This document shows positions 1-9,820 of a DNA stretch of 11,667 bases, piece after piece. Below the pieces are notes generated by a model that ran no database searches, was not told where the DNA came from, and saw only the letters and a list, made by a program, of their open reading frames with translations. Numbering within the stretch: position 1 is the stretch's first letter; each line of letters opens with the position of its first letter. The stretch lies in assembly GCA_016210785.1 (NCBI GenBank), contig JACQTN010000471.1, positions 1 to 11,667 on the forward strand, written 5' to 3'. Both the position numbers and the translations under genes were made by a program. The stretch is from Armatimonadota bacterium (GTDB taxonomy: Bacteria; Sysuimicrobiota; Sysuimicrobiia; Sysuimicrobiales; JACQTN01).

Positions 1-530
1 GGCTGGAAGTGCCCGCCGACGAGGCGGAGGCCATCGTGCAGGCCGCGCGAGTGCACGACGTGGGCAAGATCGCCATCTCCGACATCATCCTCCGGAAGCC
101 GGGGGCCCTGTCGGCGGAAGAGTGGGAGGAGATGAACCGGCATCCGGTCTTCGGCGCGCAGATCGTCGGCCGCCTGCCCCAGTACCAGCGCGGGAAAGAG
201 TACATCCTCTATCACCACGAACGGTACGACGGCAGCGGAGCGCTCCGGCTGCGGGGACGGGAGATCCCCCTCGGCGCACGGATCATCGCGGCGGCCGACG
301 TCTTCGACGCCATGACCTCCGACCGGCCCTATCGCCGTGCCTTTGACCGGTCGGTGGCTATCGCTGAAATGGTGCGGCACAAGGGCCAGCAGTTTGATCC
401 CGTGGTGGTGGAGGCGTTGGTATCGGCCCTCCAGGAACAGGGCCTGCTCCGCGAGACTCCGCGGCTGGACGCCTTCGTCCCGCCCATGCCGCTGTCCGTA
501 CCCGCCAGCAGCACGTCCGTGCGACACTAA
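1..530 (+). CDS. HD-GYP domain protein, 3' part only (copy A)
   Basis: This is the C-terminal 176 or so codons of an HD-GYP protein whose start lies before the window. The frame is already open from base 3, and the GTG at 9 lines up with the inside of the downstream paralogue, so it is not a start. Visible motifs are HDVGK (HD pair plus Lys), a His in NRHPVFG, the HH pair in YHHERYDGSG, and the Asp in AAADVFDAM, all expected metal or phosphate ligands. HD-GYP proteins hydrolyse cyclic-di-GMP to pGpG or GMP through a bi- or trinuclear iron/manganese site. Odd point: the GYP motif reads GSGALRLRG, so Tyr-Pro is absent. About 76% of residues match copy B at 1294-2673, including the same SVRH C-terminus, so the two are tandem paralogues. 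Whether copy A shares the membrane N-terminus of copy B cannot be seen. The fold is secure; enzymatic activity is inferred. Confidence 0.93.
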   Translation, partial: LEVPADEAEAIVQAARVHDVGKIAISDIILRKPGALSAEEWEEMNRHPVFGAQIVGRLPQYQRGKEYILYHHERYDGSGALRLRGREIPLGARIIAAADVFDAMTSDRPYRRAFDRSVAIAEMVRHKGQQFDPVVVEALVSALQEQGLLRETPRLDAFVPPMPLSVPASSTSVRH

Positions 531-628: not shown

Positions 629-658
629 TTGACAGTGCCTCAGGGAAGTCCCTATACT
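629..658 (+). promoter_or_regulatory. sigma70-type promoter driving the riboswitch transcript
   Basis: A perfect -35 TTGACA (629-634) and a -10 TATACT (653-658) are separated by 18 bases. Transcription would start near 665, about 45 bases before the GEMM aptamer. The first part of the transcript can form a small hairpin (668-673 with 680-685). No obvious terminator separates it from the stop codon of copy A at 530, but its strength and position make it the likely start of a new unit: riboswitch, leader ORF, 82-residue protein and possibly HD-GYP copy B. Confidence 0.8.
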
Positions 659-709
659 GGCGGCGCAACAGCAACGCGCTGCTGTGGCGCGGCGACAACT
701 GAATAGACA

Positions 710-791
710 CCTTCCGAAAGGGCAAACCGTTCGAGAGGACGGGACGCAAAGCCGCGGGACTCGCGAGAGTCAGCCGGGCTGCCGAAGAAGG
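710..791 (+). promoter_or_regulatory. cyclic-di-GMP-I (GEMM-I) riboswitch aptamer
   Basis: The sequence matches the conserved GEMM-I core. It has AGGGCAAACC (719-728), then stem P2 (727-732 with 737-742) closed by the GNRA tetraloop GAGA. The invariant GGGACGCAAAGCC (741-753) follows, then a short P3 stem GACTC/GAGTC with tetraloop GCGA (758-771) and the 3' signature AGCCGGGCTGCCGAA (772-786). CCTTC (710-714) can pair with GAAGG (787-791) to close P1. The G run in AGGGC is kept, as expected for cyclic-di-GMP binding; cyclic-GMP-AMP variants of this class carry an A at the key guanine. It lies 45 bases after a good promoter and upstream of a small exported protein and an HD-GYP gene, so ligand sensing and predicted ligand breakdown are side by side. 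Whether ligand turns expression on or off is not decided by the sequence. Confidence 0.93.
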
Positions 792-802
792 GGCCGCATG
801 GT

Positions 803-840
803 ATCGCCTGCTCCGCTTCGGAACCCGCGGGGCAGGCGAT
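803..840 (+). terminator. hairpin after the aptamer, candidate expression platform
   Basis: ATCGCCTGC (803-811) pairs perfectly with GCAGGCGAT (832-840). The stem continues inward through a T-G pair and four more pairs (812-816 with 827-831), giving 14 pairs around a 10-base loop. It begins 12 bases after the aptamer and is followed by TGTCGTTCC, only weakly T-rich, so it is a poor classical terminator or a structure acting at another level. Bases 824-830 (CCCGCGG) are also exactly complementary to 752-758 (CCGCGGG) inside the aptamer, a possible competing pairing that would make the two folds exclusive. This is inference from base pairing alone. Confidence 0.5.
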
Positions 841-863
841 TGTCGTTCCGAGAGGAGGGAGAC

Positions 864-929
864 GTGAACGACAGGGCCGGGTGGCACCGCACCGCAGTCA
901 TCTCGGGCCGAGGGAGGATGGAACCATGA
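864..929 (+). CDS. 21-codon leader ORF coupled to the next gene
   Basis: A GTG start at 864 follows a very strong Shine-Dalgarno sequence (GAGGAGGGA, 852-860) and opens a frame of 21 codons, starting VNDRAGWHR and ending GRGRMEP. Its TGA (927-929) overlaps the ATG (926) of the exported protein gene as ATGA, the usual arrangement for translational coupling. It sits between the riboswitch hairpin and the first real gene, so it may be a leader peptide setting translation of the next gene. It resembles no family I know and has no run of one amino acid that would point to attenuation. The strong ribosome site and exact overlap are the only evidence that it is translated. Confidence 0.4.
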   Translation: MNDRAGWHRTAVISGRGRMEP

Positions 930-1174
930 ATCGCGCCATGAGCCTGCTGCTATTGTTCGTGGTGATCGGGGTTGCCCTGGGGACATCCCTGGCCTATGCC
1001 GGGGAGGATCTGTCGGGCGAGGATCCGCCCATGTCGGCGGCAGGAAACGCACACAACAACGCCGGCAAGGTCTCCGGCACCAGCACGCCCGGCGGCCACG
1101 CTCCCAACGAGAACGCCACCCTGGGCGGCAACCCGGGCAACAAGGCGGGTGACCGGGATCAGGGAGGCCGCTGA
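926..1174 (+). CDS. small exported low-complexity protein under riboswitch control
   Basis: This is an 82-residue protein of unknown family. Residues 1-25 form a signal peptide: a short basic start (MNRAM), a hydrophobic core LLLLFVVIGVALG, and a likely signal peptidase I site after SLAYA. The mature part of about 57 residues is rich in Gly, Asn, Ala, Pro and Asp, has no Cys and no hydrophobic stretch, and is probably disordered outside the membrane. The ATG at 926 has GGGAGG (912-917) eight bases upstream and overlaps the leader ORF stop. It is the first clear gene after the cyclic-di-GMP riboswitch, so its level should follow cyclic-di-GMP; a role in the cell surface or matrix would fit but is inference. 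A 17-bp inverted repeat begins 48 bases after its stop. Confidence 0.72.
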   Translation: MNRAMSLLLLFVVIGVALGTSLAYAGEDLSGEDPPMSAAGNAHNNAGKVSGTSTPGGHAPNENATLGGNPGNKAGDRDQGGR

Positions 1175-1222
1175 TCTGTCGCAGTTCCATCGCAGCGGAT
1201 TGAGAGAGTCTTAGAACCCGGT

Positions 1223-1261
1223 GGTGCGCGGCCGGTCGGGCCGGCCGACCGGCCGCGCACC
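1223..1261 (+). other. 17-bp perfect inverted repeat between the exported protein and HD-GYP genes
   Basis: Bases 1223-1239 pair without mismatch with 1245-1261 around a 5-base loop (GCCGG). The stem is almost all G-C. No T-rich tract follows on either strand, so it is not a standard intrinsic terminator. It could attenuate read-through into the HD-GYP gene, protect the 3' end of the short upstream message, or be a protein-binding palindrome. It ends 32 bases before the HD-GYP start. Confidence 0.6.
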
Positions 1262-1293
1262 CACCGGCGTGTGCCGGTCCACACCGACGGGCC

Positions 1294-2673
1294 ATGCCGC
1301 GGACGCTGAGGGCGCTGCCCGCCCGCGCCCGGCTGTTCTTCTGGATCATCCTGGGGGTGTCTGTGTGCCTCCTCGGGGTGATCCTTTTCTGGCAGTCCTC
1401 GGCGGCGGTCTTGTGGGAAACGGCGCGGACCGGCACGCCCATCGTCATCGCCGCGTCCGCGCTGATCTTCCTGGCACGCCTGTACCCCATTCCCTTCGCG
1501 GGCGGCGACCGGGTCTCCGTCACCTTCCGGCTGGATGGAGTCGTCCTGTTCGCCGCGATCCTGCTGCTGCCGGAGATCGAGGCGGTCCTGGTGGCGGTCG
1601 CGGGCGTGGGGTTCCATCAACTGTACGTGTACTTCAACAAGCGCGAGCGGTGGTACCTGTGCGTCTTCAACACCGCGCAGTACGTGATCGTCGTCGGCCT
1701 GGCCGCCATCGCCTACCGCGCTCTCGACAACGGCACCGTACCGCCGCTGGCCTCGCCGAGGGACCTGATCCCGATTCTGGTCACCACGGCCGTATACTTC
1801 GCCGTCAACACCGCGCTCATTTCCACCATGCTGGCGCTCGTGCGCCAGCGGCGTCCCTGGGAGGTGTGGGTAGGCGCGCACCGGTGGACCTGGCACCTCT
1901 ACCTGGCACATCTGGCCCTGGGCATCCTGATCGCCGACCTCTTCCTGGTGGTGCCGCTGGCCGTCCCCCTGGTCACGCTGATGGTCCTGGTGCTCCGGCA
2001 CGCCTACGGCAGCGTGGCCATCATCCGCGACCAGACCCGCGAGACCATCGAGCTCCTCGCCGACACGGTGGACCGCCGGGACCCGTATACCTTCCAGCAC
2101 TCCCAGAGGGTGGCGGACTACTGCCGGCTCATCGCGCGACGGCTGGAGATGTCCGCGGACGAAGTGGACGCCATCGTGCAGGCGGCGCGCGTGCACGACG
2201 TGGGCAAGATCGCCATCTCCGACGTGATCTTGCAGAAGCCCGGCAGCCTCACGGACGAGGAACGAGGGGAGATCGACAAGCACGCCGCGTTCGGCGCGGA
2301 GATCGTCGCCCGCCTGCCGCAATACCAGCGCGGCAAGGAGTACATCCTCTACCACCACGAGCGGTACGACGGGAGCGGCACCTTCCGGCTGCGGGGGCGC
2401 GACATCCCGGTGGGCGCCCGGATCATCGCCGCGGCCGACACCTTCGACGCCATGACGTCCGACCGGCCGTACCGCCGCGCCCTGGACCGGGCGGTGGCCA
2501 TCGCCGAGATGATCCGGCAGAAGGGCAAGCAGCTCGACCCGGTCGTGGTGGAAGCGTTCATCACGGCGCTGCAGGAACAGGAACTCCTCAGCGATGCGCC
2601 GCGGCTGGGTGCGCTGGTCCCGCAAGTTCCCCTGCCGGTGCCCGCAGCGGCCAGCACTTCCGTCCGGCACTAG
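1294..2673 (+). CDS. membrane-anchored HD-GYP phosphodiesterase-like protein (copy B)
   Basis: This 459-residue protein has an N-terminal half (about 13-235) with six to eight hydrophobic segments and no recognised ligand motif. It is probably a membrane sensor domain of the kind often joined to cyclic-di-GMP enzymes. A short linker leads to a C-terminal HD-GYP domain (about 250-430). Visible ligands are H269 (FQHSQRV), H301-D302 and K305 (HDVGK), H330, H354-H355 (YHHERYDGSG) and D382 (AAADTFDAM). The usual GSGYPRG loop is GSGTFR, one residue shorter and without Tyr-Pro, just as in copy A, so catalysis is likely but not certain. ATG 1294 is the first usable start in frame; its Shine-Dalgarno sequence is weak. 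It probably lies on the riboswitch transcript, subject to the hairpin at 1223-1261, which would give feedback between cyclic-di-GMP level and its breakdown. Confidence 0.9.
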   Translation: MPRTLRALPARARLFFWIILGVSVCLLGVILFWQSSAAVLWETARTGTPIVIAASALIFLARLYPIPFAGGDRVSVTFRLDGVVLFAAILLLPEIEAVLVAVAGVGFHQLYVYFNKRERWYLCVFNTAQYVIVVGLAAIAYRALDNGTVPPLASPRDLIPILVTTAVYFAVNTALISTMLALVRQRRPWEVWVGAHRWTWHLYLAHLALGILIADLFLVVPLAVPLVTLMVLVLRHAYGSVAIIRDQTRETIELLADTVDRRDPYTFQHSQRVADYCRLIARRLEMSADEVDAIVQAARVHDVGKIAISDVILQKPGSLTDEERGEIDKHAAFGAEIVARLPQYQRGKEYILYHHERYDGSGTFRLRGRDIPVGARIIAAADTFDAMTSDRPYRRALDRAVAIAEMIRQKGKQLDPVVVEAFITALQEQELLSDAPRLGALVPQVPLPVPAAASTSVRH

Positions 2674-2753
2674 ATGACTCGGAGCATGAGAGGTATCCGG
2701 GTCAAGTTTCGTGGATGAGATCGCACCCTGGACAGCAGCGGCCCCCACCAGAC

Positions 2754-2791
2754 GCGACGGCCGGCCTCTCCAAGCAGAGGCCGGCCGTCGC
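2754..2791. terminator. hairpin terminator between convergent genes
   Basis: Bases 2754-2769 and 2776-2791 form a perfect 16-bp stem with a 6-base loop (CCAAGC). It lies midway between the stop of the plus-strand HD-GYP gene (2673) and the stop of the minus-strand gene (2818), so it can end transcription from both sides. Neither flank has a strong T tract; the plus side continues AGTGTGCAGATTCTC. The call rests on stem strength and position. Confidence 0.7.
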
Positions 2792-2817
2792 AGTGTGCAG
2801 ATTCTCGGGTGAACGGG

Positions 2818-3696
2818 TTACCGGCGGGCTTTGGCGCGGGACCGGGCCGGCCTGGATGTCCGCGCGGCCGACCTGGCGGTCCTGGCCAGCGCGGGTTTCT
2901 TCGCCTTCACCGGCGCCGCCTTGGACGCGGGCCGGGGGGCCGTAGACCGGGACGGACTCGGGGCAGTCCCCGTGGCGGCCGCAGGCCGCGGCGCGGCGGC
3001 TGCAGGTCGTGGCGCGGCGGCCGCAGGTCGTGGCGCGACAGCCGCAGGTCGTGGCGGGCCGGCCGCAGGTCGTGGCGGGCTGACCGCAGGTCGCGGCGGG
3101 CCGGCCGCAGGTCGGGGCGGGGCGGGACGCTGGGCTTCCGCCGGCCGCACGCCGGCGGCGGCCATGGCTCCGGGCGCCGGCACGCCCACACGGCCGGGGG
3201 CCGCGGGCCGCGCCGGCACGGCGGACCGGGAGACCTGAGCCGGCATCGGGCGGGCCGGCGGCCGCGGCGCCGGCTTGGGTGCCTCGGGTGGAGGCATCAC
3301 GATCTTCAACCGCTTGTACTTGGCCTCGCGCCACTTCTTGTGACGTTGCCCCAGGCGCTCGAAGAGATCGAAGAGGTCCGGCCACCCCAGGTCGTGGCGC
3401 ATCCCCTGGATCACCGGCTCCATTTTGTTCCACGGGATCGGGAACAACTCGAGGACGGGCTCCTCCGGCACGATGCCCGCCTCGACCAGGTAGCCCAGGT
3501 TGTCGCAGAAAACCGCCGCCCGCAGGAAGTTGGTGAACCGGATGCTCCCCGGCGGGCACTCGATCACGAACTGGTTGTAGTCTTTGAAGTCAAACTGGAA
3601 CACCATGTACTGCAGGGCGTCCACGTTCTGTGGTATATCGGCAATATTCATCAGCCGGAGCACGACGTCGGCTTCCTGCGGACGCAGCTTCCTCAT
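2818..3696 (-). CDS. unknown N-terminal domain with a long Pro-Ala-Arg repeat tail
   Basis: This is a 292-residue cytoplasmic protein with no signal peptide or membrane segment. Residues 1-130 look like a folded, mostly helical domain (FLRAAVFCDNLGYLVEAGIV, then PWNKMEPVIQGMRHDLG). The pattern recalls uncharacterised DUF4760-like domains, but I cannot confirm that. From about 135 the chain is Pro/Ala/Arg-rich, with seven 7-residue units of the RPAAxxP type (about 190-239), and it ends in a Lys/Arg-rich segment (KAKK, SRAKARR). The tail resembles AlgP or histone-H1-like tails, so nucleic-acid or other polyanion binding is possible. The start is ATG 3696, with a GAGGGGG ribosome site nine bases upstream; a TTG directly before it is less likely. 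It is separated from the oxidase operon by 310 bases and probably has its own promoter. Confidence 0.75.
   Translation of the reverse strand: MRKLRPQEADVVLRLMNIADIPQNVDALQYMVFQFDFKDYNQFVIECPPGSIRFTNFLRAAVFCDNLGYLVEAGIVPEEPVLELFPIPWNKMEPVIQGMRHDLGWPDLFDLFERLGQRHKKWREAKYKRLKIVMPPPEAPKPAPRPPARPMPAQVSRSAVPARPAAPGRVGVPAPGAMAAAGVRPAEAQRPAPPRPAAGPPRPAVSPPRPAAGPPRPAAVAPRPAAAAPRPAAAAPRPAAATGTAPSPSRSTAPRPASKAAPVKAKKPALARTARSAARTSRPARSRAKARR
2981..3127 (-). repeat. seven tandem 21-bp units coding the RPAA tail
   Basis: Units beginning GCAGGTCGTGGCG on the plus strand recur every 21 bases at 2981, 3002, 3023, 3044, 3065, 3086 and 3107. They differ at a few positions and stay in phase with the minus-strand gene, each coding seven residues such as RPAAAAP or RPAAGPP. 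The repeat number could change by slippage or recombination without breaking the reading frame. Confidence 0.9.
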
Positions 3697-3757
3697 CAAA
3701 GGGTTCCCCCTCGATACTGTGAGGCCCCAGCCTGGATACAGATGTTCGCGGTTTCAT
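3590..3757 (-). CDS. doubtful 55-codon ORF overlapping the start of the next gene
   Basis: ATG 3757 is preceded at ideal distance by a strong ribosome site, AAAGGAG (3770-3764). The frame opens MKPRTSVSRLG and runs 55 codons, overlapping the first 107 bases of the 292-residue gene in another frame. Its codons lack the usual GC-rich third positions, which argues against a real protein. It may be a leader ORF that affects translation of the main gene, or a chance frame behind a chance ribosome site. The ribosome site lies at the foot of an imperfect hairpin (3766-3791). Confidence 0.2.
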   Translation of the reverse strand: MKPRTSVSRLGPHSIEGEPFDEEAASAGSRRRAPADEYCRYTTERGRPAVHGVPV

Positions 3758-4010
3758 ACGGAACTCCTTTCCCCCCGCGAAAACGGGAAGGCAGTCTGAA
3801 CCCCATGCACACGGTAGTGCAGGGCTACCAGATATTGTGGTCATCAGTATGCGAGGCACAAGATACAGGTTTCCGATGGGCCAGACACGGGTCAATCCGA
3901 CATCTCGCCACGCCGGGCAGTCGGCCGGCGAGACCGGCGACACGGTACCGAGAAAACGTCTGGCGGCGAGGGGCCGGCGTCCGCCGTTCGGGAGGCCGGC
4001 GGAGGATTCT
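3700..4010. other. gap between the oxidase operon and the repeat-tail gene
   Basis: This 310-base stretch holds no convincing gene apart from the doubtful leader ORF ending at 3590. On the minus strand it should contain the end of the oxidase transcript and the promoter of the repeat-tail gene. Just after the ctaAB stop there are GC-rich inverted segments (about 3966-4002), followed on the minus strand by a short T run (TTTTC, near 3954-3958), a weak terminator candidate. I saw TTGACC at 3895-3890 but no -10 box at a normal distance, so no promoter is called. Local GC is lower than in the genes. Confidence 0.4.
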
Positions 4011-5870
4011 TCACCCCAGCGATCGGTCGAAGGCCATGGCGAAGAACAGCAGCGCCAGGTACACGATGGAGTAACCAAACAACCGCCACGCGGCGCGGTG
4101 GCTGGTGTCGCGGCGGACCTGCGCGGCCAGGGCGATGAAACCCGCGCCCAGCACAACCGCCGCACCCAGATACAGCCATCCCATCAGGCCCAGCGGGGTG
4201 AGGACGAGCGTGAACAGCACCAGCACCCCGCTGTAGGCCAGGATCTGACGCCGCGCCGCGTTGTCCCCCTTTACCACCGGGAGCATCGGGACTCCGGCCC
4301 GCCGGTAGTCCTCCACCCGCACCAGCGCCAGCGCCCAGAAGTGAGGCGGCGTCCACAGGAAGATGATGCCGAAGAGCAAGACGGCGGTCAGGTCGAGCCG
4401 TCCCGTCACGGCCGCCCACCCCACCATGGGCGGGACCGCGCCCGCCGCGCCGCCGATGACGATGTTGAGTGGCGTGCTGCGCTTGAGCCACAGGGTGTAC
4501 ACGCCCACGTAGAAGAGCAGCGCCAGTTGCGCCAGCACCGCACTCAGCACGTTCACCCACGCGGCCATGAGGAGGAAGGACGCGACGCCCAGCGCGATCC
4601 CAAACGCCAGCGCCCGGCCCGGTGGCACCCGTCCGGCCGGCAGCGGGCGGGTTCGCGTCCTGGCCATCACCCCGTCGATGTCCCGATCCACGTAGCAGTT
4701 GATGGCGTTGGCCCCGCCGGCCGCCAGCGCGCCGCCCAGCAGCGTGAGCAGGGCCAGGACCGGATCGGGCGCGCCGCGGGCCGCCATCCACATGGCCGCG
4801 TAGGCCGTGGCCAGCAGCAGCACGATGATGCGCGGCTTGGTCAGGTGGACGTAGTCCGCGGCGGCGCGCCCCCACGCCCGTAGCACCGCCCCCGCGTCCG
4901 GCGTCGCGGCGGCGTAGGCCACGCCCCCGGCGGTCTCCCCGCCCGCCACCACCGGCGGCTGCCAGGCGCGGAAGGCCAGGATCACCAGGAGCACCAGCAA
5001 CGCGGCGGCCACGCCCAGGTGGATGGTGGTCACCGCTGCGGGGATACGCAGGCTCACGTTCAGCCCGCCCAGCAGCACCTGGACGGCCAGCAGCACCAGC
5101 GCGGCGCGGGCCACCGGACCCACGCCGGGGTGATGGCGCTGCGCGCGGGAAGCACGCAGGGTGGTGACCAGGATCAGCAGGCCGACCGTGAGGGCGGCCA
5201 TGCGGTGGATGAATTGGACCAGGATCGGGCCGCGCAGCGGCGGGACGAGCCGGCCGTAGCACAGGGGCCAGTCCGGGCAGGCCAGGGCGGCGCCGCTGCT
5301 GCCCACGTATCCTCCCAGCAGGCTGGCCCCGAAGACGCCCACCGCGGCCAGCACGGCCAGGTGGCCGAAGCGGAAGCTGGAGCGGGGCGCAGAGGGAGGC
5401 TCGGCGTTTCCAGGGGAGGGCCTGACGCGCGCGTCGTCCGCCGCCAGAACGATCAGCGTGATGGTGGTGAGGAAGGCCAGGCCCAGCGCCAGGTGGGCCA
5501 CCACCACTCCCGCGGCCAGGTGCAGGCGCACGGTGAGCGCCCCCAGCAGCACCTGTGCGATCAGCAGCACCACGGCCAGCCACGCCAGGCGCGCCACGCG
5601 GGGCGCCGCCTTCCGCTGCGACCGCGCCGCCCACGCCGTGGCCACGGTGAAGAGGCCGACCACCGAGGCCACCAGCCGGTGGGTCCACTCGATCAGGACG
5701 GGCGTCTCGAGAGGCGGGAGGATCCGACCGTGGCACAGGGGCCAGTCCGGACAGGCCAACCCGGCGCCAGTGGCGCGCACCAGGCCGCCCAGCATCACCA
5801 GGAGGTAGGTGAGGACGGCGGTGATGGTGGCCAGCCGGCGGAGACGATCCATCGACGCGGCGGCGGTCAC
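4011..5870 (-). CDS. ctaAB: fused haem A synthase - haem O synthase (CtaA-CtaB)
   Basis: This 619-residue membrane protein joins two consecutive enzymes of haem A biosynthesis. Residues 1-305 are CtaA/COX15, with eight helices in two similar halves. Each half has a CPDWPLC cysteine pair (C40/C46 and C198/C204), and four haem-ligand histidines are visible (H64, H126, H222, H284). After a linker, residues 335-619 are the UbiA-type farnesyltransferase CtaB, with N391-x3-D395-x3-D399, RTRTRPL, and the WTPPHFWALAL plus GVPMLP motifs. CtaB makes haem O from haem B; CtaA oxidises it to haem A for subunit I. The fusion order runs against the reaction order. The GTG start at 5870 overlaps the upstream stop (GTGA), and an ATG at 5852 is the alternative. 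Such fusions are known in some bacteria, for example Thermus. Confidence 0.95.
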   Translation of the reverse strand: MTAAASMDRLRRLATITAVLTYLLVMLGGLVRATGAGLACPDWPLCHGRILPPLETPVLIEWTHRLVASVVGLFTVATAWAARSQRKAAPRVARLAWLAVVLLIAQVLLGALTVRLHLAAGVVVAHLALGLAFLTTITLIVLAADDARVRPSPGNAEPPSAPRSSFRFGHLAVLAAVGVFGASLLGGYVGSSGAALACPDWPLCYGRLVPPLRGPILVQFIHRMAALTVGLLILVTTLRASRAQRHHPGVGPVARAALVLLAVQVLLGGLNVSLRIPAAVTTIHLGVAAALLVLLVILAFRAWQPPVVAGGETAGGVAYAAATPDAGAVLRAWGRAAADYVHLTKPRIIVLLLATAYAAMWMAARGAPDPVLALLTLLGGALAAGGANAINCYVDRDIDGVMARTRTRPLPAGRVPPGRALAFGIALGVASFLLMAAWVNVLSAVLAQLALLFYVGVYTLWLKRSTPLNIVIGGAAGAVPPMVGWAAVTGRLDLTAVLLFGIIFLWTPPHFWALALVRVEDYRRAGVPMLPVVKGDNAARRQILAYSGVLVLFTLVLTPLGLMGWLYLGAAVVLGAGFIALAAQVRRDTSHRAAWRLFGYSIVYLALLFFAMAFDRSLG

Positions 5871-6175
5871 GGGCGGCGGCCGTTGCGGGCGGTCTTCCGG
5901 CCGTTGGTGGAGGGCTCCGGCGCTTCCCAGGAGGCGCCCGTGCCCGAGCCGCCGGAGACCGGCGGGTGCGCCGTCCCCGCGGCCTGCCGTCGGTACGCGG
6001 CGTAGATCAACCAGGCGACGGTGGTGAAAACTGCGTAGGGCGCCAGCATAATCAGCACGATGCCGAAGTCAATGCCTGGCGCCCCCGACACCGGCCCATG
6101 GGCGTACCCGTGCAGCAGCACGATCAGGACCAGCGGCCCCAGGATGAGAAGCAGCTTCAGCCTGTGCCGTTCCAT
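5867..6175 (-). CDS. small two-helix membrane protein in the oxidase operon
   Basis: This 102-residue protein has two likely transmembrane segments (about 6-24, LKLLLILGPLVLIVLLHGY, and about 37-61, FGIVLIMLAPYAVFTTVAW). A polar, Gly/Ser/Pro-rich tail ends in basic residues (GRKTARNGRRP). I do not recognise the family. ATG 6175 follows a strong GGGGGGAGG site, and its stop overlaps the GTG of ctaAB, so translation is likely coupled. Lying between subunit IV and the haem synthase, it may be a small oxidase subunit or assembly helper; position is the only evidence. Confidence 0.75.
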   Translation of the reverse strand: MERHRLKLLLILGPLVLIVLLHGYAHGPVSGAPGIDFGIVLIMLAPYAVFTTVAWLIYAAYRRQAAGTAHPPVSGGSGTGASWEAPEPSTNGRKTARNGRRP

Positions 6176-6193
6176 ACTTCCTCCCCCCCTGCG

Positions 6194-6224
6194 TTCCCTG
6201 CCTCAGCGATTCCCTGCCTCAGCG
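6194..6224. repeat. 15-bp tandem duplication at the end of the subunit IV gene
   Basis: TTCCCTGCCTCAGCG occurs at 6194-6208 and again at 6210-6224, one base apart. The second copy contains the stop codon of the subunit IV gene, so the last codons and stop were copied into the intergenic space. It looks like a replication-slippage product, and no function is evident. Confidence 0.8.
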
Positions 6225-6524
6225 GATCCCCAGCACGCGCGTGGCGTCGGGCACCAGGGCGAAGAAGAGGATGGTGGCCAGGATCAGCGGGGTGGTGACG
6301 ATGTAGGCCAGGCTGATGCGTTCAAACCGCAGGTGCATGAAGTAGGCGGCGATGAGCACGGCTTTGAGCAGCGCCAGGCTGATCAGGCACAGGACCATCA
6401 CGAGGCGCGGGATGCGGGTGAGCACCACGCCAATCTCCAGCACGGTGAGCACCAGCAGCCAGAACCAGGTGACGACGTAGACCTTGTAGCCGCCCTCATG
6501 GGCCTTGTCGTGTGCGTCTGCCAT
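6219..6524 (-). CDS. ctaF: cytochrome c oxidase subunit IV (CtaF-like)
   Basis: This 101-residue protein has three transmembrane helices (about 14-35, 42-62 and 72-92) and the signature of prokaryotic subunit IV, including LLKAVLIAAYFMHLRFE followed by a final hydrophobic helix. The subunit packs against subunits I and III and helps stability rather than catalysis. The ATG at 6524 is chosen because MADAHDKAHEGGYK is the normal short cytoplasmic start; the open frame upstream has no family similarity and overlaps the subunit III gene. A purine-rich site (GGGGGGACG) lies upstream. It sits 56 bases after the subunit III stop. Confidence 0.9.
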   Translation of the reverse strand: MADAHDKAHEGGYKVYVVTWFWLLVLTVLEIGVVLTRIPRLVMVLCLISLALLKAVLIAAYFMHLRFERISLAYIVTTPLILATILFFALVPDATRVLGIR

Positions 6525-6580
6525 CGCCCGCGTCCCCCCGTCACCCGTCGCGAGTCCTGCGCGTCCTGGGATGGGCATCC

Positions 6581-7210
6581 TCAAATCAGGTACAGCAGCG
6601 TGAAGATGAAGACCCAGACCAGATCCACGAAGTGCCAGTACAGCCCGGCGATCTCGATGGTCTCGGCGGAGTACCGCCTGCGCCCCTCCTTGCCCGCCAC
6701 CACCAGCAGGTAGATCACGCCGCTGGTGACGTGGCTGCCGTGGAATCCCGTGATGACGAAGAAGGTGGTGCTGAACATGGGCACGCCCCAGGGGTTGGTG
6801 GTGAGCCGCGCGCCCTCGCCGATGAAGTGAGACCACTCGTAGGCCTGCATGCTCAGGAACATCAGGCCGCCCAGGATGGTCAGCCCCAGGAACAGCCGGA
6901 CCTTGCGGTGATCGTTCATCCGCGCCGCCGCCACCGCCGCCGCCATAGTCACGCTGCTGCAGATCAGGATGAAGGTCATGGGGCCGACCACGGCGTTGAT
7001 GTTGAAGATGTTGTACTGGTAGGGCCAGCGCCCGGCGGACATGCGCATGACCCCGTACCCCACCAGCAGCCCGGCGAAGGTCAGGGCGTCCGACATGAGG
7101 AAAAGCCACATCATCAGCTTGCCCCAGCTCGTCCCCACCGGCGACTTGCCGCCGCCCCAGTCGGAAGCCAGGACCCGCTGTTCTTCCATCACCGCGTCTT
7201 CGGCGCTCAT
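6581..7210 (-). CDS. ctaE: cytochrome c oxidase subunit III, second copy
   Basis: This 209-residue subunit III is of the short form found in bacteria (five to six helices). Typical signatures are WLFLMSDALTFAGLL near residue 35, TGFHGSHVTSG (154-164) and YWHFVDLVWVFIF (191-203). Subunit III has no redox centre; it supports proton uptake and stability of subunit I. ATG 7210 has a GAGGGGG site close upstream. It differs strongly from the neighbouring subunit III gene and is the more family-typical of the two. The 136-base gap before it carries a dispersed repeat. Confidence 0.93.
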   Translation of the reverse strand: MSAEDAVMEEQRVLASDWGGGKSPVGTSWGKLMMWLFLMSDALTFAGLLVGYGVMRMSAGRWPYQYNIFNINAVVGPMTFILICSSVTMAAAVAAARMNDHRKVRLFLGLTILGGLMFLSMQAYEWSHFIGEGARLTTNPWGVPMFSTTFFVITGFHGSHVTSGVIYLLVVAGKEGRRRYSAETIEIAGLYWHFVDLVWVFIFTLLYLI

Positions 7211-7227
7211 GATCCCCCTCGAAGCGT

Positions 7228-7346
7228 GTTCGGTCTCCCCCTCACCCCGGCACGTGCTGCTCCCTGCAAGGCGTTTGCAGGGCGTTTCCTCGTACCGCGC
7301 TCACCCACTTCGCGCCACCTCCCGTGGGAGAGGGGTAAGAGGTATT
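7228..7346 (-). repeat. dispersed intergenic repeat, short copy
   Basis: Read on the minus strand, this stretch begins right after the stop of the upstream subunit III gene with CCTCTTACCCCTCTCCC. It continues GCGCGAAGTGGGTGAGCGCG, includes GCACGTGCCGG and ends GGGTGAGGGGGAG. The same blocks in the same order occur in the gap between ctaC and ctaD (9871-10093). The pyrimidine-rich start and GGGTGAGGG end resemble a widespread class of bacterial intergenic repeats. It can form a GGGAG/CTCCC hairpin that might act at RNA level. Confidence 0.65.
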
Positions 7347-7991
7347 CTAAATGGCAAACAGCAGCAGGAACAGGTACAGCCACAGCCCGTCCATGAAGTG
7401 CCAGTAGGTGGCGGCCAGGCCCACGCCGCCGTACGCCTGCGCCGAGTACCGTCCCAGCAGCGCCCGGGCCAGCACGTAGAGGAGCACCAGCACCCCGACC
7501 ACCAGGTGCAGGCCGTGCGCGCCGGTCAGCAGGTAAAAGAAGGAGCTGTGCGGGTTGGTGCGCAGGAAGACGCCCATGGCGGCCAGTTGCCTCCAGGCGA
7601 CCATCTGCCCTGCCACAAAGCCGGCGCCCAGCACGGACGCCGCCAGCAGCCCCAGGCGGAGGCCTGCCACGTCCCCCACCCTCACCCGCCGACGGCCCCA
7701 CTCCAGCGCGGCGCTGCTGGCCAGGAGCGCCGCGGTGTTCACCCAGAGAATGCCCGGCAGCGGGATGGGCGTCCAGTCGGGCGCGGCGCGGCGCATCAGC
7801 AGGGTGCTGGTGAAGCTGGCGAAGAGCATCGTCACCGCCGCCAGCAGGAGCCACAGCCCCAGGCGCCCGGCATCCACCGGCGCCACGCCGGCCCCCGACC
7901 CGCCGCCGTTGCCGCCCGGTCCGCGGCCGGCGCCGCCCACTGCGCCGTTTCCCGGCCGCTGCCGCAGAAGCGTCTCGGCCACGCCCGTCAC
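7347..7991 (-). CDS. ctaE: cytochrome c oxidase subunit III-like protein, first copy
   Basis: This 214-residue protein starts with a Gly-rich, disordered stretch (about 14-40) and has about five helices. Subunit III signatures are present but altered: LLTGAHGLHLVVG (154-166) for the usual GFHGxHV, and YWHFMDGLWLYLF (197-209). The GTG start overlaps the stop of ctaD by four bases (GTGA), with GGGGAG just upstream, so its translation is tied to subunit I. A second, different subunit III gene follows after 136 bases. The two may serve alternative forms of the oxidase, or both may be built in together. The assignment to the subunit III family is clear; its exact role beside its neighbour is not. 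Confidence 0.88.
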   Translation of the reverse strand: MTGVAETLLRQRPGNGAVGGAGRGPGGNGGGSGAGVAPVDAGRLGLWLLLAAVTMLFASFTSTLLMRRAAPDWTPIPLPGILWVNTAALLASSAALEWGRRRVRVGDVAGLRLGLLAASVLGAGFVAGQMVAWRQLAAMGVFLRTNPHSSFFYLLTGAHGLHLVVGVLVLLYVLARALLGRYSAQAYGGVGLAATYWHFMDGLWLYLFLLLFAI

Positions 7992-9820
7992 CTGCTCCCC
8001 GAGGCGCCGTGCGCCCCGCCGTCTCCGGGCACCGCGGCGGGCAGGGCCGGCACCGTCTGAGGGATGAAGTCCTGCGGCGCGCCCGGCACGCTGAAGTCGT
8101 ATGCCCAGCGGTGCACAACCGGCTCCTCAGCGCCCCAGTTCCCGTGCGGAGGAGGCGACGGGACCGTCCACTCGAGGCTGTTCGCTCCCCACGGGTTCCG
8201 GTCAGCCTTCTTCCCGCGGAACATGCTCCAGAACAAGTTGTAGGCGAAGATGAGCTGCGCCGCGCCCAGGACGAAGGCGCTGACGGAGATCACCGCGTTG
8301 AGGCCGCCCAGGTGCTGCAGGTGCGGGTAGACGTCCGGGGAGTAGATGCGCCGCATCATGCCCGCGGTCCCCAGGTAGTGCATGGGGAAGAAGGTGCCGT
8401 AGATGCCCACGAAGGTGAGCCAGAAGTGGAGGCGGCCCAGCCTCTCGTCCATGAGCCGGCCGAACATTTTGGGGAACCAGTGATACGTGCCCCCGAACAC
8501 GCCGAACAGCGCGGCGCTGGCCATGACGAAGTGGAAGTGGGCGACCACGAAGTACGTGTCCGTGAGCTGGATGTCCACCGCGGGCGAGCCCAGGAAGATG
8601 CCGGTCAGCCCTCCGGTGACGAAGAGGGAGACGAAGCCGACGGCAAATAGCATGGCCGAGGTAAAGCGAATCTTCCCCCGCCACAGGGTGGCCAGCCAGT
8701 TGAAGGTCTTCACGGCCGACGGCACGGCGATCACCAGGGAGGTGGCCATGAACGCCGTCCCCAGCAGCGGGTGCATGCCGCTCACGAACATGTGGTGGCC
8801 CCACACGACGAAGCTGAGGAACCCGATGGCGGCCATGGAGCCGATCATGAAGCGGTAGCCGAAGATGGGTTTGCGGGCGTGGGTGGCCAGGATGTCTGAC
8901 ACCATGCCCATGGGCGGCAGGATCAGCACGTACACCTCCGGGTGCCCCAGGAACCAGAACAGGTGCTGCCACAGCAGGGGCTGCCCGCCCGCGTGGGGGA
9001 TCAGCTTGCCGCCCACCACCAGGCCGGCCGGCACGAAGAAACTGGTGCCGCCGAGGCGGTCGAACAGCAGCATCACCGCCGCAGCCATCAGCACCGGGAA
9101 GGAGAGCAGCATCAGCACGGCGGTAATGAACAGCGACCAGGTCGTCAGCGGAAGGCGGGTCATCGACATGCCCCGCGCCCGCAGGTTGAGGATCGTGGTG
9201 ATGTAGTTCAACCCTCCGAACAGGAAGGAGAGAATCAGGATGAAGAGGGCGATCAGCCACAGCGTCATCCCCAGCCCCGAACCGGGCGCGGCCTCCTTCA
9301 GAGCGCTGAGCGGTGGGTAGACGGTCCACCCGCCCCCGGGCGCCCCGCCCTCCACGAAGAACGCGGCGAGCAGCACGATGATGGCCGGCGGGAACAGCCA
9401 GTAGGAGAGCGCGTTCAGGAACGGGAACGCCATGTCGCGCGCGCCGATCTGCAGCGGGATGAGGAAGTTGCCGAATCCGCCGCTCAGGATCGTGGTCAGC
9501 ACGAAGAAGATCATGATGGTGCCGTGCATGGTGACCAGGGCGTAGTAAAAGGTGGGCGTCATCTGCCCGCCCTGGAACCCGCCCGGAAACAGGCTGGCCA
9601 GCAGCGGCCACTCCCGGCCCGGCCACCCCAACTGCGCGCGCATCAGCATGGCCAGCGTGCCACCCACCAGCGCCATGAACAGCGACGTGAAGTAGTACTG
9701 CAGCCCGATGATCTTGTGGTCGAGGCTGAAGATGTACTTGCGGAAGAAGCCCAGCTCGTGTTCGTGCTCGTGGGCCTCGGGGGCCGGGTGTGCGTGTTCA
9801 CGCGCCTCGAGCGTCGCCAT
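7988..9820 (-). CDS. ctaD: cytochrome c oxidase subunit I, A1 type
   Basis: This 610-residue catalytic subunit of an aa3-type haem-copper oxidase reduces oxygen to water and pumps protons. All ligands are visible: H99 (MHGTIMIFF) and H430 for the low-spin haem; H428 for haem a3 (VAHFHF); and H293, H342 and H343 for CuB, with Y297 able to form the His-Tyr link (GHPEVY). E295 in GHPEVY, D129 and N136 (ARDMAFPFLN) mark a full D channel. K371 (VPSAVK) marks the K channel, so this is an A1-type pump. The N-terminus is His-rich (EAHEHEHE), and a polar tail of about 70 residues follows the last helix. ATG 9820 has a GAGGAGAGG ribosome site. The haem A it needs would come from the ctaAB product in the same operon. 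Confidence 0.98.
   Translation of the reverse strand: MATLEAREHAHPAPEAHEHEHELGFFRKYIFSLDHKIIGLQYYFTSLFMALVGGTLAMLMRAQLGWPGREWPLLASLFPGGFQGGQMTPTFYYALVTMHGTIMIFFVLTTILSGGFGNFLIPLQIGARDMAFPFLNALSYWLFPPAIIVLLAAFFVEGGAPGGGWTVYPPLSALKEAAPGSGLGMTLWLIALFILILSFLFGGLNYITTILNLRARGMSMTRLPLTTWSLFITAVLMLLSFPVLMAAAVMLLFDRLGGTSFFVPAGLVVGGKLIPHAGGQPLLWQHLFWFLGHPEVYVLILPPMGMVSDILATHARKPIFGYRFMIGSMAAIGFLSFVVWGHHMFVSGMHPLLGTAFMATSLVIAVPSAVKTFNWLATLWRGKIRFTSAMLFAVGFVSLFVTGGLTGIFLGSPAVDIQLTDTYFVVAHFHFVMASAALFGVFGGTYHWFPKMFGRLMDERLGRLHFWLTFVGIYGTFFPMHYLGTAGMMRRIYSPDVYPHLQHLGGLNAVISVSAFVLGAAQLIFAYNLFWSMFRGKKADRNPWGANSLEWTVPSPPPHGNWGAEEPVVHRWAYDFSVPGAPQDFIPQTVPALPAAVPGDGGAHGASGSR

Follow-up and report, generated by a model that had tools for sequence, protein, structure and literature searches.

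What does a cyclic-di-GMP (c-di-GMP) riboswitch control when it is placed between two genes for HD-GYP phosphodiesterase-like proteins? Such an arrangement occupies positions 629-2673 of the window, by which we mean the whole 11,667-nucleotide (nt) stretch of DNA analysed here. This stretch is contig C386 in the 3.73-Mb draft genome of an Armatimonadota bacterium, a metagenome-assembled genome (GCA_016210785.1) that is 72% complete and split into 616 contigs. The original prediction, drawn from the letters of the window, saw in this region a promoter, a GEMM-I aptamer, a leader open reading frame (ORF), a gene for a small exported protein and a full HD-GYP gene (copy B), with a second HD-GYP paralogue (copy A) directly upstream, and proposed a self-contained feedback circuit with the exported protein as its output. 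We consider it probable that the region is one copy of a repeated cassette, in which a c-di-GMP-I riboswitch would control an operon of the exported protein gene, sp2, and copy B, the messenger thereby feeding back on its own breakdown. Genes were called with an ORF scorer of our own, with no annotation pipeline.

A second copy of the cassette lies next to the window. The reverse complement of contig C16 of the same genome ends in the first 70 bases of the window, letter for letter, and copy A spans this exact 70-nt overlap, with its N-terminal part on C16. The upstream paralogue is indeed an HD-GYP protein by its HD_5 domain, with the correction that the window holds only its C-terminal part and that its start on C16 has neither an aptamer nor an sp gene of its own upstream. 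On C16, an aptamer is followed by sp1 (80 residues) and, after a gap of 42 nt, by a gene for a MASE9-HD-GYP protein (456 residues); genes on the opposite strand come next, and copy A starts after them. This contig also holds part of an RNase P RNA, which points away from the aptamer. The sp1 and sp2 proteins are 62% identical (nonsynonymous divergence dN 0.32, synonymous divergence dS 0.87), and the C16 HD-GYP and copy B are 60% identical (dN 0.30, dS 0.95). Since the two pairs have diverged alike, these values fit a unit that was duplicated as a whole, and sp behaves as a selected protein. The two leaders likewise share a conserved aptamer, the hairpin that follows it and the ribosome-binding site. 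The predicted small exported protein is thus borne out by its ribosome-binding site, its signal-peptide-like N-terminus and the excess of dS over dN. The sigma-70-type promoter of the original prediction is also in place (Table 1).

Table 1. Positions of the cassette features and of copy A in the window
Feature	Position	Strand	Basis
Copy A, C-terminal 175 residues of a MASE9-HD-GYP protein	3-530	+	HD_5 E 5.5e-29; MASE9 on C16 part
Sigma-70-type promoter TTGACA-18-TATACT	629-658	+	11/12 matches; 1 found versus mean 0.1 in shuffles
c-di-GMP-I riboswitch aptamer with G20 and A47 as contact bases, as in the c-di-GMP type	712-787	+	covariance matches, base census
14-bp hairpin, its short tail containing T; candidate terminator in the expression platform	803-840	+	folding; kept in C16 paralogue
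sp2, 82-residue exported small protein; mature part starts at about AGEDLSGEDPPM and ends GDRDQGGR	926-1174	+	ribosome-binding site, hydrophobic signal-peptide-like N-terminus
Long GC-rich inverted repeat in the gap from sp2 to copy B, perhaps an attenuator or the mRNA end	1216-1270	.	fold; no T run behind
Copy B, 459 residues, MASE9 membrane sensor and HD-GYP domain	1294-2673	+	HD_5 E 6.4e-35; MASE9 E 4.2e-9

The association of aptamer and HD-GYP gene recurs elsewhere in this genome. Behind six of its eight aptamers an HD-GYP gene lies on the same strand within 3.2 kb; these are four distinct genes, one of which is shared by three aptamers. On contig C336, three aptamers each precede an exported-protein gene, the third encoding a repeat protein, and are followed by the genes of a membrane HD-GYP and of a GGDEF protein with a degenerate motif (GENRF), and on C478 an aptamer stands directly ahead of a membrane HD-GYP gene. 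The genome holds 22 HD-GYP-type matches to copy B, most of them without aptamer or sp (17 loci were looked through), and a search of genome contigs with copy B returned six distant loci only, in Clostridia-like records. A similar picture is obtained across the order. Matches to the Rfam family RF01051 exceed the cut-off in all 42 same-order relatives; outside the order, one of 18 genomes gave a weak match to RF03167, under the cut-off. Together with the own genome, these relatives (43 genomes) contribute 224 aptamer sites. HD-GYP matches were found in sense behind 14 of them (12 distinct genes, six of the 14 cases in the own genome) and in antisense at five, the latter controls coming from four genomes with two on one contig. 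The profile used was built on four sequences, three of these from loci counted, and the counts of HD-GYP genes behind aptamers are lower bounds, as 3.2 kb of downstream sequence were available at 71 sites and 1.4 kb at 201. The link between aptamer and HD-GYP is enriched in the order. According to PMC6366702, genes of c-di-GMP turnover are seldom under such riboswitches; here, four distinct HD-GYP genes in one genome and 12 across the order lie behind one. Two further aptamers (G009:C7:8557-8643 and G040:C343:1589-1673) each precede a MASE9 gene of the same strand by about 1 kb; they stand outside the count of 14, and the HD-GYP profile search covered 1.5 kb downstream of each.

A feedback on c-di-GMP presupposes that the switch senses this messenger. 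A scan with cmscan gave RF03167 (c-di-GMP-I-GGC) at 712-787 (+) with 67.2 bits (E 1.8e-14, gathering score 59) and RF01051 at 711-786 with 69.7 bits (gathering score 35), and the covariance model of the predicted GEMM-I aptamer is therefore matched well above its cut-off. Clan competition in Rfam, which goes by E-value, labels the window aptamer c-di-GMP-I-GGC, as would be expected of a variant with a changed ligand and hence without c-di-GMP feedback. We regard such a variant as very improbable: RF01051 gives more bits, and after GGGACGC (position 47) the window has A, where the RF03167 consensus has the presumably name-giving G. This A, which we take to be a ligand contact, is found at 222 of the 224 sites, with G in one (G006:C30) and one site (G018:C76) not located by pattern; we infer that "GGC" refers to the contact bases, and the GGC ligand class was dropped on the identity of this base. 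At position 20 the census, made with fixed offsets and patterns, counts G in 210 aptamers, A in 13 and C in one. Since the window has G here, while the G20A form of GEMM-I is reported to bind 3'3'-cyclic GMP-AMP (3'3'-cGAMP; PMC6274999), its aptamer reads as a c-di-GMP switch rather than as the GGC type or the cGAMP type (GEMM-Ib), whose mark is A at position 20. Both positions are numbered by alignment to Vc2, G20 being supported by PMC6274999. One aptamer with A at position 20 belongs to the own genome (L013, G000:C375:8251-8366).

Copy B is a full HD-GYP gene, as first read, and it gains a MASE9 domain (PF20972; 37.1 bits, cut-off 24.3) that the original prediction had not named. With residue roles taken from PMC4159591, the protein keeps H269, H301, D302, K305, H330, H354, H355 and D382, that is, the equivalents of seven of the eight metal ligands of PmGH and the catalytic lysine. 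The position equivalent to E185 is a tyrosine, and the GYP motif reads GTF in copy B and GAL in copy A, so that both are without the tyrosine and proline that serve as a criterion for HD-GYP phosphodiesterases.

The small exported proteins form a family of their own. Profiles were built from five and then from eleven sp proteins, with sp2 as the first row of both alignments; they match 8 and 14 database proteins, query members included, some of them short, well-conserved types. Over 386 genomes (43 of this order, at most 14 candidates scored per genome), the sp profile gave nine matches in four genomes. Six of the nine lie just upstream of a membrane HD-GYP gene on the same strand, namely in the window, on C16, C430 and C336, and on contigs C95 and C20 of the relative G004, which belongs to another family. 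The HD-GYP gene comes next in five of these pairs, and on C336 one further exported-protein gene stands between. Aptamers accompany four of the six loci; none was detected at C430 and G004 C20 at E up to 0.01. The other three matches are a homologue in G022, a fragment without signal peptide on C549, a 4.4-kb contig on which no HD-GYP was recognised, and a protein of G078 (E 3.8e-4), whose neighbourhood is outside the pairing tally. With an E-value limit of 0.1, an earlier sp profile had 13 matches, spread over eight of the 43 genomes; the five weak ones in G033, G011, G002, G029 and G023 (E 0.003 to 0.09) are uncounted. On G004 C95, an aptamer, an sp gene (98 residues) and an HD-GYP gene follow each other, and the sp stop codon overlaps the HD-GYP start codon as ATGA; the predicted order of parts is thus kept in a related genome. 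The C20 locus of G004 is, by eye, syntenic with that of the window, with a coiled-coil/zinc-ribbon-like gene on one side and a relative of the gene at 2818-3699 on the other. Furthermore, two sp and two HD-GYP database clusters agree in the length of their longest contig (P0009/P0022, 77,008 bp; P0012/P0023, 119,372 bp) and have equal contig or member counts, which suggests that the pairing also exists among these clusters.

Several findings weigh against a cassette in which a c-di-GMP riboswitch commands a phosphodiesterase. As regards the enzyme, copy B is without the GYP tyrosine, like Bd1817, which is inactive; alanine mutants of the GYP residues of PmGH remained active, as reported along with it (PMC4159591). 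In addition, the best solved-structure match of copy B is the 3'3'-cGAMP-specific phosphodiesterase 3 (5z7c, 113.8 bits), which leaves its substrate not certain. This match, together with the 13 A-bearing aptamers, one of them in the own genome, would suit a switch that senses, or an enzyme that degrades, 3'3'-cGAMP instead of c-di-GMP. We judge this highly unlikely for the window, whose aptamer has G at position 20, and the c-di-GMP enzyme PmGH (4mcw) is a nearly equal match of copy B (112.2 bits).

Other findings of this kind concern the bond between the switch and copy B. The inverted repeat at 1216-1270 could end or process the transcript ahead of copy B. The sp homologue of G022 closes a type IV pilus operon with an aptamer at its head. 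MASE9 matches occur in 20 of the 43 genomes, with 29 places listed; upstream ORFs and aptamers were scanned at 26 of these, the remaining three (the window and two on C16) being read directly. An sp gene was found at only two of the 26 (C430 and G004 C95), most MASE9 genes thus being without one, and an aptamer-like pattern at three (G004 C95, G040 C343 and G009 C7). Conversely, the MASE9 cut-off is reached in only four of the six sp-paired HD-GYP proteins (C386, C16, G004 C95 and G004 C20); the C430 protein scores 22.5 against the cut-off of 24.3 and the C336 protein gives no match, both aligning with copy B over the N-terminal region. Finally, an antiterminator would need the 3' end of the aptamer to be complementary to the sequence downstream; in the window this complementarity does not exceed that of shuffled sequences, 24 of 40 shuffles being as good.

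With these data, the riboswitch could control sp2 only, as an exported surface or pilus-associated protein, copy B being independent behind a strong hairpin and the HD-GYP neighbourhood incidental. The rarity of sp beside MASE9 genes in the order and the pilus operon of G022 would agree with this, and so would the other riboswitch targets of the order. Indeed, first downstream genes fall into clusters, and a Pfam scan of ten members returned sigma-70 factor, CAP, T2SSE/MshEN, GspH prepilin and Peripla_BP, with two members without match; the last four of these kinds look exported or pilus-related. On the other hand, the gap between sp1 and its HD-GYP gene on C16 is just 42 nt and contains no hairpin like that at 1216-1270, the two reading frames overlap in G004, and sp also precedes HD-GYP genes without a detected aptamer at C430 and G004 C20. 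A separate promoter for copy B, named at the outset as a point that would tell against the circuit, was looked for as well, and a scan of 531-2800, which includes the interval between sp2 and copy B, found no promoter-like site there. Control of sp2 alone is possible, and in our judgement rather unlikely.

We return to joint control of sp2 and copy B and to the way in which the switch could act. We take the hairpin at 803-840 as the expression platform. Its pairing is kept in the C16 leader, with one pair changed on both sides, and the relative G004 has a U-tailed hairpin at the equivalent place; a competing hairpin appears on folding of the truncated transcript. The pattern scan of 531-2800 called neither this hairpin nor the 1216-1270 repeat a terminator. 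At the 217 sites with sufficient sequence downstream, the 3' end of the aptamer shows only a slight excess of complementarity to the 70 nt that follow over shuffles (z below -2 in 26, above +2 in one), and better values were obtained at C349, C336-2 and C16, where 0, 1 and 1 of 40 shuffles were as good.

In the proposed mechanism, binding of c-di-GMP would decide transcription termination just behind the aptamer, at about 840-850. This choice would set the output of sp2 and, given read-through of the 1216-1270 hairpin, that of copy B as well. Once expressed, copy B would hydrolyse c-di-GMP, and the messenger would feed back on its own breakdown. If the ligand lowers expression, the loop would be positive and a high c-di-GMP level would protect itself; if the ligand raises expression, the loop would be negative. 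Comparison thus supports the order of parts and the idea of a switch that commands a phosphodiesterase, through the six of eight own-genome aptamers and the ATGA overlap in G004. Provided that co-transcription is true, the cassette would be a compact feedback device made of an RNA and an enzyme.

The exported protein seems to be more than the output foreseen in the original prediction. It is present as predicted, and it is probably not merely an output, because sp precedes a membrane HD-GYP gene also where no aptamer was detected (C430 and G004 C20). The sp protein and the membrane HD-GYP could then constitute the core of the system, with the riboswitch as an optional control. Since sp is paired with membrane HD-GYP proteins both with and without an aptamer, it may work with the sensor, acting outside the inner membrane on or together with the membrane part of the HD-GYP. 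No match to sp2 was found in Pfam or NCBIfam. It fits the sp family by its signal peptide, a short G-D/E-x-P motif region, a Gly/Asn-rich tail and its profile match. The AlphaFold model has a single helix at the N-terminus (residues 2-19), after which no fold is confident (mean predicted local distance difference test score 56.3, predicted template modelling score 0.21). A role of sp in pili or matrix may also be considered, given the G022 homologue. On contig C59 of that genome (L339, reverse complement 738-8339), the aptamer heads a type IV pilus operon with, by eye, PilT-like, sigma factor, MerR-like, PilB-like and PilC-like genes and the sp homologue last; the sister genome G026 has the same pilus operon without an sp gene.

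More tentatively, sp proteins could be secreted peptide signals or periplasmic ligands that are read by the adjoining HD-GYP sensor, the riboswitch setting the amounts of signal and receptor in an RNA-wired peptide loop that resets c-di-GMP. GFEGGD occurs three times in an exported protein of C336 and four times in one of C175, as in a multi-copy precursor, and mature sp2 is without a confident fold, as a free peptide would be. We consider this idea doubtful, the more so as sp stands beside few MASE9 genes (two of 26). If sp is a ligand of the membrane sensor, it would provide an input for MASE9, for which a single literature search found no ligand, none of the papers listed by it naming MASE9, and a new kind of exported signal. 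Ten exact sites of the DNA pattern for GFEGGD exist in the own assembly; they are confined to C175, C336 and C430, each of which carries membrane HD-GYP genes and two of which also carry GGDEF genes; six sites were found in the 42 relatives, one in the G022 sp and five not in sp-like proteins. Contig C175, on which no aptamer was found, encodes a membrane HD-GYP and a degenerate GGDEF protein (GERQF), together with two exported proteins, a short one with MEGGDS and one with four copies of GFEGGD that is cut by the contig end. The GFEGGD(S) repeat proteins lie at L011:3589-3996 (-) on C336, with three copies, and at L310:1-640 (-) on C175, with four, both adjoining genes for a membrane HD-GYP and a degenerate GGDEF protein.

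The riboswitch, MASE9 and HD-GYP are each of known kinds. The aptamer resembles other c-di-GMP-I (GEMM-I) riboswitches of RF01051 in its fold, its score over the gathering threshold, G20 and A47, and the hairpin behind it, and differs in being placed ahead of a predicted c-di-GMP phosphodiesterase gene. Copy B shares the His/Asp metal ligands and the catalytic lysine with PmGH (4mcw) and cGAMP phosphodiesterase 3 (5z7c), but has MASE9 in front, GTF for GYP and the tyrosine at the E185 position. The small periplasmic protein DbfQ of Vibrio cholerae, which is reported to be bound by the sensor encoded alongside it, DbfS, and to act on this sensor (PMC12714742), is a precedent of an exported protein encoded beside a membrane sensor of the biofilm lifecycle. 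Unlike the HD-GYP proteins, DbfS is a histidine kinase, and the abstract of that paper names no riboswitch; the likeness is one of description, not of sequence. The three aptamers in a row on C336 recall the triple-tandem c-di-GMP-I riboswitches Bc3-5 of Bacillus (PMC4759541), but on C336 an exported-protein gene follows each aptamer, which makes three riboswitch-gene units. Among the open-licence papers listed by our searches, we found no case in which these parts are combined with an exported protein family dedicated to them, in several copies within one genome and also in a second bacterial family.

Some candidates were dropped. The predicted leader ORF (864-929, with GTG at 864) did not hold, as the aligned C16 leader has no counterpart of it. 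Matches to a microRNA and to Chloroflexi-1 at 1177-1283 are far under the cut-off and arise from the inverted repeat, and a T-box-like string near 879 matched no Rfam family at E up to 5. Among the first genes behind aptamers in the order, a sigma-70-family cluster comprises 29 genes, each from a different genome, and 28 of these lie no more than about 215 nt behind the aptamer; c-di-GMP may thus command a sigma-factor regulon across the order. Downstream of the cassette, the gene at 2818-3699 (-) encodes a protein whose N-terminal part is conserved, with the relative seen by eye on G004:C20, and whose Ala/Pro/Arg tail comes from about seven tandem copies of a 21-bp repeat at 2974-3125. Further on, a cytochrome c oxidase gene cluster includes the gene at 4011-5870 (-), whose 619-residue product joins two CtaA-like stretches to a heme o synthase.

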